A DNA stretch of 64,000 bases from positions 1 to 64,000 of the forward strand of contig NZ_BAHD01000017.1 in NCBI RefSeq assembly GCF_000298215.1. Reading direction: 5' to 3'. Shown here one piece after another: positions 10,291 to 53,155 of the stretch. This DNA comes from Kineosphaera limosa NBRC 100340. GTDB lineage: Bacteria; Actinomycetota; Actinomycetes; Actinomycetales; Dermatophilaceae. The first letter of the stretch is position 1. Every line of letters starts with the position of its first letter. The notes beneath the pieces are model-generated. The model did no database searches. It worked only from the letters and a program-made list of their open reading frames with translations, and had not been told where the DNA came from. The translations under genes were made by a program, and so were the position numbers.

Positions 10291-10391
10291 ACCGGGGGCG
10301 TCGGTCTGCGCCGGAACGCGCCGGAATGCGCCGGACGCGCCGTGCGGTGCCGGTGGACACGCCGGATCGGCACGCAGGCGCAGGTGTCACC

Positions 10392-11195
10392 ATGAGCCTC
10401 GTGTCGACGATCGTCTTCTGCCACGCCCATCCCGACGACGAGGCCTCCCAGACCTCCGGGACGATGGCCCGCGCCGCCCGCGAGGGGCACCGGGTCGTCG
10501 TCGTGTTCGCCACCAACGGCGACCACGGCGAGGTCCCGCCCGACCTTGCCGATGGAGAGAGCGTCGTGCAGCGGCGGCGCCGGGAGGCGGCCGCGTCGGC
10601 GCAGGCCATCGGTCTGGCGCGCGTCGCCTGGCTCGATTACGCCGACTCCGGCATGACCGGCTGGGAGCAGAACGGGGCCGACGGCTGCTTCCACGCCGCC
10701 GACCTCGACGAGGCCGCGGGCCGGCTGGCGGCGATCCTCGACGAGGAGGATGCCGACGTGCTCGTCGGCTACGACTGGCACGGCGGCTACGGCCACCCCG
10801 ATCACGTGAAGGTGCACCACGTCGTGCACCGGGCCGCCGACCTCGCGGCCCGGCGGCCCCGCCTCCTTGAGTCGACGATGAACCGCGACGCGATGCGCCT
10901 GCTCATGGCCTCCGCCAAGGAGGCCGGCATGGAGGCGGGGATGGATGTCGACGGGCCCGCCGACGACGGCAATCCGTTCGGCACCCCGGAGGCCGAGATC
11001 CACTACCGCGTCGACATCGCGCCCGATCTGGAGGTCAAGCGGGCGGCCCTGACGGCCCACGCCAGTCAGACCAGCGACGTGGGGATGATGCTGGCGATGC
11101 CGCCGGAGGTCTTCGCCCTCGTCTTCGGCTTCGAGTACTTCATCGAGCCCGGCCGCGAGCCGGGCATGCGCGACGCCTGGATCTTGTCGGACTAA
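10392..11195 (+). CDS. PIG-L family (LmbE-like) N-deacetylase
   Basis: 267 residues. The zinc site shows FCHAHPDDEASQTSG near the N-terminus and GHPDHVKVHHVVH centrally, as in MshB, Mca and LmbE-like deacetylases. Mycothiol enzymes are 280-300 residues, so this is slightly short and could be a general N-acetylsugar or mycothiol-conjugate deacetylase. The ATG at 10392 is preceded in frame by a GTG at 10386. A short GCGCCGGAA-type direct repeat (about 10308-10335) lies between it and the preceding glycosyltransferase, with which it may form an operon. Confidence 0.87.
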   Translation: MSLVSTIVFCHAHPDDEASQTSGTMARAAREGHRVVVVFATNGDHGEVPPDLADGESVVQRRRREAAASAQAIGLARVAWLDYADSGMTGWEQNGADGCFHAADLDEAAGRLAAILDEEDADVLVGYDWHGGYGHPDHVKVHHVVHRAADLAARRPRLLESTMNRDAMRLLMASAKEAGMEAGMDVDGPADDGNPFGTPEAEIHYRVDIAPDLEVKRAALTAHASQTSDVGMMLAMPPEVFALVFGFEYFIEPGREPGMRDAWILSD

Positions 11196-11219
11196 CGCGC
11201 GGGACGGGCCGCGGGACGA

Positions 11220-11648
11220 TCAGTAGGGCCGCGGCGGAACGTAGTCCTGCGGTCCGCCGGGAGGCCCGCTGAGCTGGCCCTTCGGGTCGTACCCGAAGCG
11301 GTTTTGGTGACGCTGTCCGTCGCGAATCGTCCAGATGAGCATGATGATCCATCCGATGATCGGGATGAAGTTGAGCAGCTGCCACCAGCCTGACTTGTCG
11401 ATGTCGTGCAGCCGGCGGCAGGTGACCGCGATCGAGGGGAGCAGCAGCACCACGTTGGTCAACCACTGCACCGGCCCCTGGTCGCCGCCGAGCTCCCAGC
11501 GCGGGAACACGATCGAGTCGATGATGGCCGCCGCAATGCTGACCAGGATCTGGAACAACACGAAGTACCAGAACTCGCTGCGTCGCGCGCGACCGTCGAA
11601 CGTCACGTATTTGGTCAGGCACGTGCGGACTGCTTCGCCGAAACCCAT
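11220..11648 (-). CDS. DUF805 membrane protein
   Basis: 142 residues with the DUF805 pattern: MGFGEAVRTCLTKYVTFDGRARRSEFWYFVLF at the N-terminus, then three to four membrane helices and VTCRRLHDIDKSGWWQLL between helices. These are inner-membrane proteins of unknown function common in bacteria. The ATG at 11648 follows AGGGGAGAT in a duplicated AGGGGAGATT sequence. The Pro-rich C-terminal tail is specific to this copy. Confidence 0.9.
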   Translation of the reverse strand: MGFGEAVRTCLTKYVTFDGRARRSEFWYFVLFQILVSIAAAIIDSIVFPRWELGGDQGPVQWLTNVVLLLPSIAVTCRRLHDIDKSGWWQLLNFIPIIGWIIMLIWTIRDGQRHQNRFGYDPKGQLSGPPGGPQDYVPPRPY

Positions 11649-11828
11649 CAGATCTCCCCTGAATCTCCCCTGGACCGCCACTGCAGGTGGCGCCCGGTGC
11701 GCTACTTGCGCACCCTCCAAGGATGCCGTCTTCGGTCGCCGTCGTTGGCAACCGGGTCGCTTGCCTGCGGTAACTCCGCGGCCCGGGGCGGGCGCTGAAG
11801 GGGGCGCGCACCCGTAAGCTCGCGTGTC

Positions 11829-12311
11829 ATGACGGCCAATCCCGCGATGGATCCGCGTACGTACGTTCCCCGCGGGTCGAACGCGCAGCTGCTCGATGAC
11901 CTGCGCGCGCTGCTTGGGCCTCCGGCGGCTCCCGGCGGCACGACTGCCACCGGCTCCCTCCCGGTCATCGACCCGGCCACACCACCCGCAGCCTCGGGGC
12001 GACTGCATGTGTCGCACGGCAAGGATTCCGCAGAGCTGCCCGCGCAGGTGGCCGACGCGTTGCGGCTGCTCGTGGCGGCGCTGGCCGACGGGCGACCGGT
12101 GACGGTCGCCCCACAGACGCACCTGGTGACGCCGCAGGAGGCGGCGCAGATGCTGGGAGTGACCAAGACCCAACTCGAGGAGCTGATGGATTCAGGCGCT
12201 CTGCCGTACCGCACGATCGGCCGCCACCAGCGCATCCTGCTCACCGACGTGCTCGCCAGCGTCCGCCGTCGGCTCGGTGACCAGGCCGGGCTGGGCCTGG
12301 GCGACGACTAG
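11829..12311 (+). CDS. Excisionase-like helix-turn-helix protein
   Basis: 160 residues. The C-terminal third, VTPQEAAQMLGVTKTQLEELMDSGALPYRTIGRHQRILLTDVLA, is a MerR/excisionase-type winged helix (HTH_17). The N-terminal half is Pro/Ala/Thr-rich and probably disordered. Such proteins are often antitoxins of PIN-domain toxins or small regulators; no toxin or integrase lies next to it here. Its TAG stop overlaps that of the convergent gene at 12308-12622 in the tetramer CTAG. Confidence 0.85.
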   Translation: MTANPAMDPRTYVPRGSNAQLLDDLRALLGPPAAPGGTTATGSLPVIDPATPPAASGRLHVSHGKDSAELPAQVADALRLLVAALADGRPVTVAPQTHLVTPQEAAQMLGVTKTQLEELMDSGALPYRTIGRHQRILLTDVLASVRRRLGDQAGLGLGDD

Positions 12312-38934: not shown

Positions 38935-39612
38935 TCAGGGGGTCGGCTGGGTGCCGCCGGCGCGGTCGAGGTTGGTGCCGGTCAGCTCGACGGCCTGCCG
39001 CAGCAACCGCTGATTGGCGCTGCTGGAGGGGCCGGTGACCGACGCCGCGACGACAGCGTGGGTGCGGCGGGCGAGCACGTAGTCGAAGGAGTACCGCAGC
39101 CCGTCGGTGTTGTAGGTCACCGAGTAGCCAGCGGTGTTGGCGTTCGAATCGTCGTGCTCGGTGACAGTCATCGTCACGGTGCGGATACCGGCACGGGTTC
39201 GCATCGGCTCCGTGCAGGCCTCCGTCATGGCCCGGACCGCGGCCGGGCGGTCCGGCGGTGCGTCGAAGGTCTCGACGGTCACCGTCAAGTCCCGGTCGGC
39301 GTTGGCCCCCTGGGTCGGATTGCGATACACCGACCGGGCGAACCGAGCGGGCTCGGGCGTGACCAGCGCTTCCTCCAGGGCCAGGAGGGCGGTGCGGCAC
39401 GCCGGGTCTTCGGCGGAGGCGTCTGTCAACGCGTCGTCCCACGAGGCCTCCGCAGGGCGTTGCGTCGTCGTACCGACCAGCTGCCACTCCCGGCCCAACT
39501 CGCCGGCCGTCGGCAAGGCGGAGCCCACCTGCTTCTCCGAAAGACCCCCCGGACTGAGCGTGCAGGCGCTCAACAGCAGGATCGACCCGAACGACAGACA
39601 GCGGCGGAGCAT
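38935..39612 (-). CDS. Putative lipoprotein, unknown function
   Basis: 225 residues. Signal peptide with lipobox LLSAC (Cys17). The remainder is hydrophilic and looks like a small extracellular sensor-type domain: LPTAGELGREWQLVG and TVTEHDDSNANTAGYSVTY recall PknH-like extracellular domains of actinobacteria, but similarity is weak. Two further Cys (in DPACRTALL and TEACTEPM) could form one disulfide. First of three unlinked minus-strand genes of unknown role. Confidence 0.72.
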   Translation of the reverse strand: MLRRCLSFGSILLLSACTLSPGGLSEKQVGSALPTAGELGREWQLVGTTTQRPAEASWDDALTDASAEDPACRTALLALEEALVTPEPARFARSVYRNPTQGANADRDLTVTVETFDAPPDRPAAVRAMTEACTEPMRTRAGIRTVTMTVTEHDDSNANTAGYSVTYNTDGLRYSFDYVLARRTHAVVAASVTGPSSSANQRLLRQAVELTGTNLDRAGGTQPTP

Positions 39613-49158: not shown

Positions 49159-50448
49159 TCAGCCACGCTTCACGACGTAAGGGGGCCCTGGGAAAGTCAG
49201 GGTGCCACCCTCGAAGACGCCCCGCCAGCTGCCGTCGGGCAGCTGCTCGGTGTCGGAAACCGGGTACCCCCACGGCCCGTCGGCGCCCCCTTCCTTCATC
49301 CACTCCAGGTAGATGAACCCCGCGACCCCGACGGGCCGGGTGCGTGGGCCCCACGTGACGCACCCGTTCCGAAAGGCCTGCGCCCATCCCTTGTCGGGCC
49401 GCTGAGTCCGCGGTCCGGAGGGGTGCCCGAGGATGCCTTGGCCATAGCCGAGCCGCTTCCACACGATGAACGACTCGCCCCAGATGGCCTGTGGCGTGGT
49501 GCGCGGACCTTTGACGATCGAGCCGCCGCGGAACCGCTGGGTCCACTCCGGGTCACTGCCGGAGTCGGCCATCGGGTAGCCGAGCGGCCCCGCAGGTCCG
49601 CCCGCGGCGAGATAGGCGGTCAGCGCTGCGGCGTTCAGTGCCTGTGCGTCCGTCGCCTGCGTCCAATAGATGGCGCCCCCCTGGTACCGCACGACTTGGC
49701 CCCGGCCGTCACCGACGGCCTTCTGCGGCCCCAGCGACGATTTCAGATAGGAGCGCTCCGCACCCAACGCCTGGAACTTGCGCAGCAGCGGCCCGCAACC
49801 CTGCAGGCACGGGGCGTTGTGTTGACTCGTCCGGTCGTCGCGCAGAGAGGTGCGGGTGCAGTTCTCGAAGGCGTACGGCGGGATGCAGCTGGCGATGCGG
49901 CACACCACGCCTCCGCTGCACCGAACGTGGGTGTTGCACTGGCCGTAGCGAAAGGCGTTGCAGCAGTGTCGCCGCTGGTCGCAGCTGGACGAGGGTCCCC
50001 GGCCACACTTGCAGCTCCAGCAGCTGCTGTTGCACAGGTGCCCGCGGCCGCAGCCGCACTTCGTGCATCGGGCGTTGCAGTCGATGATGTACCGGTATCC
50101 GCCGCAGCACCATGAGGAGTCCGCCGCCTTCCACCAGCCGGCCGCGAAGCTGCCCGGCGGGCAGGTGTTAGAACCCTTGTTGACCGTGCAGCAGAAGACC
50201 GTCCAGCCGTTGGCTGCCTTGGTCGCCGGTCCGCACACCGTCGCGTAGGCGCTTTGCGGACGCAGTACGTACGCCTTCGGGTCGACTGTCAAGGCCGTGC
50301 CGGCCAGCGCCGCCCCCAGAACGACGCTGCGGCGCGTGGGACCGCCAGGCTCTGCCGGGTCACCGTAAAGACGTCGGGCGAGCGTCTCGACGAACCCAGC
50401 CAGGCCGCGGGGTCGGGTGCGCAACTGGGTGAGCGTGGGGTGGTCCAT
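49159..50448 (-). CDS. Tat-exported Cys-rich protein (MauA-like region) with LGFP-like repeats
   Basis: 429 residues. Residues 36-53 carry a Tat signal (PTRRSVVLGAALAGTAL). Residues 72-218 contain 24 cysteines, enough for 12 disulfides; within them TCPPGSFAAGWWKAADSSW and YRYIIDCNARC resemble the methylamine dehydrogenase light chain, where the first TTQ tryptophan follows CPPG. Residues 285-425 hold three LGFP-like repeats (GPLGYPMADSG, GILGHPSGP, GPWGYPVSDT), which bind mycobacterial or actinobacterial cell wall. A quinone cofactor is not demonstrated. Last gene of an operon encoding MauE- and MauD-like disulfide machinery. Confidence 0.85.
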   Translation of the reverse strand: MDHPTLTQLRTRPRGLAGFVETLARRLYGDPAEPGGPTRRSVVLGAALAGTALTVDPKAYVLRPQSAYATVCGPATKAANGWTVFCCTVNKGSNTCPPGSFAAGWWKAADSSWCCGGYRYIIDCNARCTKCGCGRGHLCNSSCWSCKCGRGPSSSCDQRRHCCNAFRYGQCNTHVRCSGGVVCRIASCIPPYAFENCTRTSLRDDRTSQHNAPCLQGCGPLLRKFQALGAERSYLKSSLGPQKAVGDGRGQVVRYQGGAIYWTQATDAQALNAAALTAYLAAGGPAGPLGYPMADSGSDPEWTQRFRGGSIVKGPRTTPQAIWGESFIVWKRLGYGQGILGHPSGPRTQRPDKGWAQAFRNGCVTWGPRTRPVGVAGFIYLEWMKEGGADGPWGYPVSDTEQLPDGSWRGVFEGGTLTFPGPPYVVKRG

Positions 50449-50451
50449 GGG

Positions 50452-51003
50452 CTACCTCGACATCAGCGCGTAGGGGGTGATCCGTACTCGGGCGGTCATG
50501 GAGGCCGCCAAGGGAACCGTGGCCATCCGTCGGCGGTGCGCGCCGATCACCACGAACAGGCAAAAGCCCCGGCCACCACTGGAAAAGAAGTGCTGCGCGG
50601 CGCTGACTCGTGCCTGCGGACGTTGGAGGTTGTTCTGGCTGAACTGGCTGGGCGCCAGCCGGGGTATCCCGTTCGCTGCGAACAGCCCCGTGTCGGCGAC
50701 CTCCGGCCCGTAGTCCACGAGCGCGAAGAAGACGTCCGCGCTGCCGAGGAGTTGCACGGCACCGGACCCGAAGTCACCCCGGTCGTCGGGCAGGGCGGCG
50801 GTGCTCGCATGCAGCACCGGTCGCAGGATCTCCCCCGTGCTGCCCAGGAGGCTGTTCCCCTCCACGGATGCGACCCGCAGGCCGTCCGGTTCGAGTCGGC
50901 GAATGTCGACCGACCAGCCCCGCGGGCGTGGGGATGCGAGGCCGAAGCGGGAGACGACCGGTGCGGCGGCCGTCGCCATCGCGGGCAGGGTCGCGGCGCT
51001 CAT
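50452..51003 (-). CDS. Hypothetical protein of the mau-like operon
   Basis: 183 residues, one Cys (in GRGFCLFVVIG), no clear membrane segment or signal peptide. Alternating strands (VDIRRLEPDGLRVASVEGN, VQLLGSADVFFALVDYG) suggest a beta-rich fold. No family recognised. Only three bases separate it from the Cys-rich gene and 42 from the membrane gene upstream, so it is an integral operon member and may be a partner, chaperone or catalytic subunit for the Cys-rich protein. Confidence 0.75.
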   Translation of the reverse strand: MSAATLPAMATAAAPVVSRFGLASPRPRGWSVDIRRLEPDGLRVASVEGNSLLGSTGEILRPVLHASTAALPDDRGDFGSGAVQLLGSADVFFALVDYGPEVADTGLFAANGIPRLAPSQFSQNNLQRPQARVSAAQHFFSSGGRGFCLFVVIGAHRRRMATVPLAASMTARVRITPYALMSR

Positions 51004-51045
51004 GCTGATTCTCCTTCAGGCGTGCTGTCGTCGGGTTGGAGCGGC

Positions 51046-51648
51046 CTAGATGAGGGCGACGGCCCCGGCCATCAGGACCAAGGCGGCCAGCGCGAGAGAA
51101 ACCTGGGCAAGCACGTCAGCTGGGCGGGCCCACCGCTGCAAGCCTCGAAAGAGGGCGCGTAGCTGCCCGGGCGCCTCCACCCTCGCGACGAGGAACACGG
51201 GTAGCGCGCGCACCAACCCGAACGTGGCGCCGATCACCGCGCCCGCTGAGGGTTGCCCGGTCAGCATCGCCGCGACAACGACCGCGTACGTCGTGGCGCT
51301 GGGCACGATCGTGGCGACGCCGAAGCCCAGTTGGACGCCGAATCCCACGCCGTACACCCAGCCGCGGTACCGCGTGAGCCATTGCTCGTCGACCTGGCGC
51401 CGCCACGAGGGCAAGGCTCGGCCCAGCAGTCCCAGATCTGCGAGGAGCCCGACGATCAGCAACGCGGCGAACAGCCCGAGGACTGGCACCGAACCTCGCC
51501 AAGTGGTGGGCACGAGCGCTCCGACGCCGGCGCCGAGGGTGCCCAGTGCGACGCCGCCGGCCACCGAGCCGAGGACGTAGGCGCCGGTCGTCACGGGCCA
51601 GCGGGAGGCTCGAGCCCGCTCACCTAGCGGGCAGATGCTCGAGAGCAT
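51046..51648 (-). CDS. CcdA/MauF-like polytopic membrane protein
   Basis: 200 residues with six predicted helices. SRWPVTTGAYVLGSVAGGVALGTLGAGVGAL and YGVGFGVQLGFGVATIVPSATTYAVVVAAMLTG have the Gly/Pro-rich repeat character of the CcdA/DsbD membrane domain to which MauF also belongs. The paired membrane Cys of true CcdA are absent; the only Cys is C6. It may scaffold or pass reductant together with the MauD- and MauE-like proteins. Start at 51648 behind GAGG, nine bases after the small gene upstream. Confidence 0.75.
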   Translation of the reverse strand: MLSSICPLGERARASRWPVTTGAYVLGSVAGGVALGTLGAGVGALVPTTWRGSVPVLGLFAALLIVGLLADLGLLGRALPSWRRQVDEQWLTRYRGWVYGVGFGVQLGFGVATIVPSATTYAVVVAAMLTGQPSAGAVIGATFGLVRALPVFLVARVEAPGQLRALFRGLQRWARPADVLAQVSLALAALVLMAGAVALI

Positions 51649-51657
51649 CGACTCGCC

Positions 51658-51765
51658 TCAAGGGGACCAGGTGGCGCGGATCGCCGCGACGACCGCGATG
51701 GGCACGCCGATCAGCATCCCGAACACGAGACTGACCTGCGCCGGGCTCGACGTGATTTCACTCAT
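51658..51765 (-). CDS. 35-residue single-helix membrane peptide in the mau-like operon
   Basis: ATG at 51763-51765 overlaps the TGA of the thioredoxin-like gene (TGATG); the frame runs to TGA at 51658-51660. It begins MSEITSSPAQVSLVFGMLIG and continues hydrophobic to AIRATWSP, giving one membrane helix of about 20 residues with a basic end. Tight overlap upstream and nine bases downstream to the next start indicate a real cistron. Probably a small subunit of the membrane complex. Confidence 0.7.
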   Translation of the reverse strand: MSEITSSPAQVSLVFGMLIGVPIAVVAAIRATWSP

Positions 51766-52589
51766 CAGTCGTCGACTCCGGCGGGCTTCGAGCTGCGGCT
51801 CGAGGACTGGTCACCGGGGGCATCGGGCGCCTCATAGAGGCTGGGGTGCCCGGGGTGGATTCCCGCCGCGAGCAGCTCGCGGTCCATCCGGGGCAGGTCA
51901 TCGCGACTGCCGCGGCCCAGGACGGGGTCGTGCGCGCGCGCCTCGGCGATCTCTGCGACCCCCTGGCCCATGAGGCTGCGCACCTGCTCCCACCGGGTGG
52001 ATGACCCTTCGCCGGTCACGACGCCGCCCTCCACGTGCACGAAGTAGGGGGAGCCGGGGATGTCGTAGTCGCTCCAGGTGGCGTCCGACTGCACGACCGT
52101 CAGCCCGGGCGTCGCGAGTCGGCGCAGGGCACCCGGGCTTTCACTCTCCGGGCCCTGCACGACGACGACCAGGCGCGCGCCCGCGGGAATGTCAAGGAGG
52201 TCCGGCGCGGCGAAGGCGGCCCAGAACTCGTGGCACACGCTGCATCCGCTGGACAAGAACGCCAGGAGCGTCGACGCGCCTGACGAACCCATGGGGACCA
52301 CGACTTCCCGGCCGTTCAGGTCGGTGCCGACGACATCGGCTGCCGAGCGCCGGGCACCGGCTGGGCGCGCCGCCACAACTCCGTCACCCAGCTGTAGCGG
52401 CAGCGGGCCGGGTTGCTCGGCTATCGAGTCGTCGGTCCCGGCCGCACGCTCCAGGTCGAGGCCGGCGCCCAGTTCATCGAGCGCTCGCAAGATGAGGGCG
52501 TGGCTGCGCAGGAGGCCGAGCACGAGAATCGACAGCAGGCCCACGGCGAGGCTGAGCGTCACGACCGCGATGAGCAGAGCGGTAAGCAT
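51765..52589 (-). CDS. MauD/TlpA-like membrane-anchored thioredoxin-fold protein
   Basis: 274 residues. One N-terminal helix (residues 3-27) anchors a thioredoxin domain; the active site is LLAFLSSGCSVCHEFW (C116, C119). The domain outline (LNGREVVVPMGSSGASTLLAFLSSG, VVVVQGPE, DIPGSPYFVHVEGG with the cis-Pro) matches MauD, which forms the disulfides of the MauA subunit. The C-terminal 60 residues are hydrophilic and extra to the family. It starts three bases after the MauE-like stop. Confidence 0.85.
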   Translation of the reverse strand: MLTALLIAVVTLSLAVGLLSILVLGLLRSHALILRALDELGAGLDLERAAGTDDSIAEQPGPLPLQLGDGVVAARPAGARRSAADVVGTDLNGREVVVPMGSSGASTLLAFLSSGCSVCHEFWAAFAAPDLLDIPAGARLVVVVQGPESESPGALRRLATPGLTVVQSDATWSDYDIPGSPYFVHVEGGVVTGEGSSTRWEQVRSLMGQGVAEIAEARAHDPVLGRGSRDDLPRMDRELLAAGIHPGHPSLYEAPDAPGDQSSSRSSKPAGVDD

Positions 52590-52591
52590 GG

Positions 52592-53155
52592 TCAGGTGCT
52601 CCTGTTGGCGTGGGTGTGGATACTGCGGATGGCGGCCGGCGTCGTGGCAGGCAGCGCCGAGAACACCTGCCAGGCGAGGAAAGCGACGAGCGCTGCCCCC
52701 ACCCAGGTGACCGCGATGACGACGGGGTCACGCGCGACGGCGGCCAAGCTCGGTTGGACCGCGACGGCACCGGCGGCGGCCGCCAGCCCCAACGTGACGA
52801 GTAGGTGGCTGCGAGTCGGTGGAGTGTCGGCCTTGCCGAAACACCCGCAGGACTGCATGACGCCACCCTGCCGAAGCGCTATCCACACAAAAGCGCTGAA
52901 TCCGACATAGATGCAACACAGGGCGGCCGCAGGCCAGCGTGACGGCGCAATGATTGCGGCCGCGAAAATGCCGAACTGAACCGTCGCGAACAGCCGCACG
53001 AGTGTTCGATTCGCTGGAATGTTGACTGAGTGCAACGCTCTGACCAGTGGCATCGGGTCCATTAATTTGGGTGCAGCGCTGATGGCTAAGAGTATTGCAG
53101 CGGCGATAAAGGGCGCTGCAAGAATGCCGGGCATGCCCTTGAGGATATTGGCCAC
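52592..53155 (-). CDS. MauE-like redox membrane protein
   Basis: 187 residues, about five helices, DoxX/MauE superfamily. The hallmark is QSCGCFGKADTPPTRSHLL with C103 and C105; two further Cys (C80, C81) lie in a helix. MauE works with MauD to oxidise MauA disulfides. GTG start at 53153-53155. First gene of the operon. The 5' third is lower in GC at third codon positions than neighbouring genes (for example around 52950-53100), hinting at acquisition by transfer. Confidence 0.88.
   Translation of the reverse strand: MANILKGMPGILAAPFIAAAILLAISAAPKLMDPMPLVRALHSVNIPANRTLVRLFATVQFGIFAAAIIAPSRWPAAALCCIYVGFSAFVWIALRQGGVMQSCGCFGKADTPPTRSHLLVTLGLAAAAGAVAVQPSLAAVARDPVVIAVTWVGAALVAFLAWQVFSALPATTPAAIRSIHTHANRST

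Follow-up and report, generated by a model that had tools for sequence, protein, structure and literature searches.

A mau-like gene cluster of Actinomycetota with a predicted selenoprotein MauF and a cysteine-rich surface protein

The 64,000-nucleotide stretch of Kineosphaera limosa NBRC 100340 analyzed here (contig NZ_BAHD01000017.1, positions 1 to 64,000; hereafter, the window) belongs to an actinobacterial genome of 4.85 Mb (G000) and carries a tightly packed minus-strand gene cluster at 53155-49159. Three of the encoded proteins resemble MauE, MauD, and MauF of the methylamine utilization (mau) genes, a fourth (the partner) has no family, and the fifth (the client) is a Cys-rich surface protein bearing a signal for twin-arginine translocation (Tat). 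The MauF-like gene contains an in-frame UGA, predicted to encode selenocysteine (Sec), and its product is referred to as Sec-MauF. The features are as follows.

52592..53155, minus strand: MauE-like membrane protein with an invariant C-G-C motif (SCGCFG); PF07291 at 55.2 bits, hhalign to true MauE.
51765..52589, minus strand: MauD-like membrane-tethered thioredoxin-fold protein with CSVC, the CxxC being invariant; hhalign, TIGR02661, family alignment.
51046..51765, minus strand: Sec-MauF, a MauF-like membrane protein and predicted selenoprotein, one coding sequence of 239 residues plus stop with an in-frame UGA; hhalign to MauF.
51658..51660, minus strand: in-frame TGA, putatively read as Sec, aligned to the conserved Cys of MauF (TWSP-C-G); TGA in 55/55 sequences, TGC in 4 others.
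51614..51632, minus strand: candidate Sec insertion sequence (SECIS) hairpin GCCCGCT-AGGTG-AGCGGGC with GGU in the loop, 26-44 nt 3' of the UGA; frozen synonymous positions, two covarying pairs.
50452..51003, minus strand: conserved partner protein lacking an evident export signal, with a weak PsbP/Mog1/Eag-type fold match; AlphaFold2, VIA-align, co-occurrence.
49159..50448, minus strand: client, a Tat-exported surface protein with a 24-Cys domain and three LGFP repeats; sequence, Pfam.
49744..50253, minus strand: conserved Cys-rich domain of the client, residues 66-235; 69 relatives aligned, co-varying Cys pairs.

The original prediction had described six tightly packed minus-strand genes. 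Packing and strand stand, but the number falls to five, since the two open reading frames (ORFs) taken for a tiny membrane peptide and a CcdA/MauF-like protein are one reading frame with a single in-frame TGA. The assignments of the first two genes were borne out by comparison with true mau clusters from plasmids of Paracoccus, Methylobacterium, Indioceanicola, and others. The CGC-bearing protein, which also matches PF07291, aligned to true MauE by hhalign (98.3%, E 1.8e-14), and its CxC is invariant in 20 sequences. The thioredoxin-like protein with CSVC aligned to true MauD along 180 columns that take in the anchor segment (98.5%, E 1.8e-15). TIGR02661 (MauD), the NCBIfam family that most MauD-like members match, hits 10 of 21 of them (best 9.5e-6); an NCBIfam search of the cluster proteins otherwise gave nothing useful.

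The short ORF ends in ...AIRATWSP and is followed by TGA and then, in the same frame, by GESMLSSICPLGER. True MauF reads ...LLSTWSPCGYSSISLLRP... at this site, and the UGA (51660-51658) falls where true MauF has its conserved Cys. A first hhalign comparison with true MauF gave E 8.9e-14; reading the frame through lifted the score from 93.5 to 140.2 (E 7.1e-21), with shuffled controls at or below 19.3. As judged by these profile alignments, the relationships to MauE, MauD, and MauF are confirmed. The stop at the site is TGA in all 55 distinct stop-bearing sequences, never TAA or TAG, and coding conservation extends to both sides of it, including the codons between the TGA and a downstream ATG. 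Four homologues (L048, L085, L157, and L158) carry TGC (Cys) at the site; two of the four belong to genomes G445 and G208, in which the MauF gene lies away from the cluster. The Sec/Cys residue is the only catalytic-type residue conserved in the MauF-like protein, and no other Cys is conserved. DsbD/CcdA membrane electron carriers (PF13386) have an SPC-type motif at the matching site; the MauF-like protein shares this motif and a weak DsbD_2-like match (25.1 bits) with them and differs in having one catalytic residue, the predicted Sec.

We searched for SelA in the same 396 Actinomycetota genomes (the phylum sample) as for the Cys-rich protein. SelA was found in 26/26 assessable UGA carriers and in 0/3 Cys carriers (G208, G445, and G453), a difference with Fisher p = 2.7e-4 (26/0 vs 0/3). 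For G113, G191, and G256, the TGA was read from loci L108, L107, and L099, respectively; two further carriers were unreadable at the site, owing to a contig end (G262) and a run of N (G339; contig C332, L106, just upstream of 5461). For SelB, we counted matches above cut-off only (elongation factors also match at loose thresholds), and by this measure none was found in the three Cys carriers. tRNA-Sec was detected at 66-76 bits in 8/8 close-relative UGA carriers. In the window genome, one of the eight (66.4 bits), it is situated ~3 kb from SelB on contig C143.

Synonymous positions 3' of the UGA are frozen: Ser +7 is AGC in 55/55 sequences, Pro +10 is CCG in 55/55, and Arg +14 is CGG in 37/38, unlike the mixed codon usage elsewhere in the Sec-MauF gene. 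Within one group of sequences, the hairpin listed above exchanges stem pairs G-C/C-G (18/15) and C-G/T-A (31/4). The other group forms the hairpin CTCCCC-GGTC-GGGGAG, with the GGTC loop kept in 17/17, and the Cys homologues break the hairpin (4-5 of 7 pairs). Given the invariant UGA, the Cys/SelA exchange, the frozen wobble positions, and the covarying GGU-loop hairpin, the site bears the signature of selenocysteine, and the MauF-like protein is most likely an unrecognized selenium-containing protein. None of the 119 prokaryotic selenoprotein families inventoried in 2026 is of MauF type (PMC13188914), the nearest being TsoB (NF045694; PMC13188914, Table 1). This rhodanese/DsbD fusion-like selenoprotein shares a DsbD-type membrane part with Sec and differs in its UxxxxU motif, two Sec residues, and rhodanese fusion. 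No NCBIfam 2026 model matches the MauF-like selenoprotein.

We then consider how consistently the genes travel together. Within a related-genome set of 78, the window's own included, the Cys-rich protein occurs in eight; the seven besides the window are 51-78% identical to the window's protein. In the window and these seven close relatives, gene order is fully kept, small ORF included. A scan of named genomes yielded 34 loci, in Piscicoccus, Phycicoccus, Janibacter, Pedococcus, Knoellia, Nostocoides, Kineococcus, Frankiales, Egibacteraceae, Acidimicrobiaceae, and others. The Cys-rich protein is present in 31/396 genomes of the phylum sample, and an independent search of the same genomes with the partner returned all 31/31 of these plus one weak match. 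The gene set is kept in about 60 loci, with the same gene families at every assessable locus; in deep lineages, the order is altered to MauE-Cys-MauD-MauF-partner, with the genes mostly still together. The cluster is thus a real conserved unit that co-occurs and co-localizes across the phylum, in support of the earlier suggestion that a mau-like maturation module is dedicated to a Cys-rich surface protein; scattering of the genes, named beforehand as the refuting outcome, was not seen. No further widely conserved neighbor gene was found at the loci, and an apparent 23-locus cluster was rejected as chained antisense frames plus a cyclophilin neighbor. Separately, a gene for a cyclophilin-type peptidyl-prolyl isomerase lies near the operon in L018, L022, L023, L027, L047, L107, and L108.

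As originally described, the client carries a Tat signal and three LGFP repeats (PF08310, 81.6 bits), and the N-terminal domain of its mature form holds 24 Cys. Across the 69 aligned relatives, the invariant non-Cys residues include WWK, R-Y, D-C, and FRYG (FRYGQC), and the Cys number is even (16-26) in nearly all full-length members. Pairs of Cys residues appear and disappear together: C87 with C214 (37 both, 28 neither, 0 mixed), those at alignment columns 30 and 115 (43 both, 22 neither, 0 mixed), and C115 with C218 (7 both, 57 neither, 1 mixed). A PDB profile search with the Cys domain found nothing, and a plasmid search gave no match. A match to tetraspanin-10 (single protein, E 0.18) was set aside as Cys composition.

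The C-terminal part of the client varies. Most members have LGFP, but the proposed LGFP anchoring is one of several C-terminal solutions in the family: in some members the LGFP is joined by CWB2 cell-wall-binding or DUF4214, others have repeats of the GYWLVASDGG or FG-GAP-like type, and still others have no C-terminal module. The LGFP repeats of the client match PDB 6sx4 (E 3e-12) and are shared with corynebacterial PS1 and other LGFP-repeat wall proteins, from which the client differs by having no mycoloyltransferase domain and by a family in which LGFP is one module among several. In L036, L043, L046, L048, and L103, the Cys domain is followed by GYWLVASDGGIFSFGDA repeats that have a propeller-like look and no Pfam family. 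L098, L100, and L102 instead carry tandem GWAIDPDT..VHVYVDG repeats, with at most a weak Big_7 match in Pfam. In deep lineages where the Cys protein stands alone (L041, L104, and L106), a gene for a secreted PD40 β-propeller directly follows the partner gene (L041, 10591-11553; L104, about 10300-12255; L106, 6506-7498). The two genes overlap in L041 and L106, and it looks as though the separate propeller substituted for the fused repeats.

The gene originally listed as unknown indeed encodes a protein without a family. AlphaFold2 modeled the partner with high confidence (predicted local distance difference test, pLDDT, 89). Foldseek gave a best E of 6.9e-3, none below 1e-3, and VIA-align returned Z of 5-7 (maximum 7.0) to Tsi3, PsbP, and LpqN, with Mog1, EagT6, and SciW lower; this group dominates the list. 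The partner has no evident export signal. Eag proteins are cytosolic chaperones, which makes it reasonable to suppose that the partner may act as a holdase for the client before Tat export.

Taken together, we consider it highly probable that the cluster encodes a dedicated extracytoplasmic folding machine with Sec-MauF, along with its Cys-rich surface client. The machine most likely depends on selenium, forms disulfides, and serves a single family of surface proteins. The membrane protein MauE (C-G-C) and the tethered MauD (CxxC) would form and shuttle disulfides, as for the light chain of methylamine dehydrogenase. In Paracoccus, MauD and MauE are reported to be essential for methylamine metabolism, and MauE was speculated to aid light-chain disulfide formation (van der Palen 1997, as cited in PMC7794033). 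The single conserved catalytic residue of the MauF-like protein would be Sec, the module's most reactive group, inserted at the in-frame UGA by SelA, SelB, and tRNA-Sec under the direction of the hairpin just downstream; the direction of electron flow through it is likewise presumed. Sec has a lower pKa and exchanges faster than Cys, properties that would serve a client holding as many as 13 disulfides. Ahead of Tat export, the client is likely held by the partner, a cytosolic and probably PsbP/Mog1/Eag-like protein. The client itself would be a Tat-exported module with 8-13 predicted disulfides ahead of varied surface or wall-binding repeats, and once finished it is most likely a structural or adhesive module.

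The closest known system is the mau operon (Paracoccus denitrificans PD1222, L111). Both have MauE, MauD, and MauF homologues with MauE and MauD adjacent, and both have a disulfide-rich client exported by Tat. The present cluster differs in that MauB is undetected and MauG is absent from the window genome, the client is not detectably MauA and is fused to surface repeats, MauF has a predicted Sec in place of Cys, and an additional, apparently cytosolic, partner protein is present.

Several observations weigh against this interpretation. SelA is common in the phylum (234/396 genomes, 59%), so its presence in 26/26 UGA carriers is by itself modest; the Cys exceptions bear the weight, yet number three genomes, two of them from one family. 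The hairpin folds at energies just slightly below those of synonymous shuffles (mean z -1.1 for one group and about 0 for the other), and the SECIS case therefore rests on the frozen wobble positions and covariation. At the alignment threshold used, odd Cys counts occur in L041, L045 (truncated), L107, and L108. The proposed structure prediction of the Cys domain gave no usable model (AlphaFold2, pLDDT 33), so the disulfide pairing is drawn from covariation only, which predicts C87-C214 and C115-C218. The fold match of the partner is weak (Z below 8), and we infer, rather than observe, both selenium incorporation and the disulfides.

Of the alternatives, one goes further than disulfides: Sec-MauF and its companions might install a new protein-derived crosslink on WWK...RY...FRYG, with the Cys domain and a β-propeller partner, fused or adjacent as in L041, L104, and L106, forming an analogue of the two-subunit amine dehydrogenase that needs no MauG. 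We regard this as unlikely. A related proposal, improbable in our estimate, is that the client bears a Trp-derived quinone resembling tryptophan tryptophylquinone (TTQ) and, as a relative of MauA, acts as a redox enzyme or shield. Tat export, an N.CPPG motif followed by Trp, and the MauD/E/F-like helpers are in its favor, and the stand-alone Cys protein beside a PD40 propeller gene recalls MauA with the MauB propeller. The homology to MauA, though, did not hold. Including the Tat signal, the client aligned to the MauA profile at 93.6% (E 2e-7), with the alignment running through the Tat peptide; the signal was lost on its removal, and MauA membership was rejected. Mature domains alone gave E 0.011 over 19 columns (FCcTIn.G.N.CPPG), within the range of column shuffles, one control scoring higher, which reduces the reported MauA-like stretches to a short C..N.CPPG motif. 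PF02975 (MauA) matched neither the client nor any other protein of the window genome, and 0/396 phylum-sample genomes above cut-off, while true MauA scored 180 bits. The only invariant Trp residues are the adjacent pair WW (105-106), with no second, distant invariant Trp in the client. MauG (PF03150) is absent from the window genome, as claimed, and from 17/18 carriers. MauB (PF06433) was undetected in 18 carrier genomes, but no control genome gave a match either, so that the search had no positive control genome, although the model matches true MauB at 701 bits. TTQ was rejected on the Trp pattern and the missing MauG; the suggested quinone-bearing protein is unsupported, as is an antimicrobial shield.

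Turning to the UGA, readthrough as another residue, or leaky regulatory readthrough, would equally account for the coding conservation on both sides. Insertion of selenocysteine specifically is what fits the exact exchange with Cys, the SelA dependence, the tRNA-Sec in carriers, and the downstream GGU-loop hairpin, making readthrough without selenocysteine very improbable. We give still less credence to two separate genes, a membrane peptide ending at the TGA and an independently started MauF-like protein, with the stop serving as terminator or translational-coupling site. Small coupled ORFs are common, and most members have an ATG three codons 3' of the TGA, but the three codons ahead of that ATG are conserved, TGA is never replaced by TAA or TAG in 55 sequences, TGC substitutes only where SelA is missing, and true MauF runs as a single uninterrupted protein whose residue there is Cys. 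Just as doubtful is a role in small-molecule or ribosomally synthesized and post-translationally modified peptide (RiPP) biosynthesis, as proposed for Streptomyces, where MauE and MauD homologues are reported from candidate RiPP clusters that lack the remaining mau genes (PMC7794033). In the present case, wall-binding repeats mark the client as a large surface protein, and the neighborhood conserves no other biosynthetic gene.

By our rating, the mau maturation module here comes with a selenoprotein family and a client family that are both new. Searches of the literature, with most subscription journals outside their reach, found nothing linking selenocysteine with a methylamine-type system or joining MauE with LGFP. 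The selenoprotein would add to the 119-family inventory and to NCBIfam, and is spread over many Actinomycetota families; annotation pipelines stop at UGA, so Sec-MauF genes are likely misannotated wherever present. To our knowledge, the chemistry of MauF is not settled, and a predicted Sec at its sole conserved thiol makes the catalytic residue testable by Sec-to-Cys exchange. The MauD/E/F module is not bound to amine oxidation and appears to fold a surface protein as well. Elsewhere in the window, ARAGORN places a tRNA-like gene at 39072-39161, whose four-base anticodon (gtcg) is unassignable.

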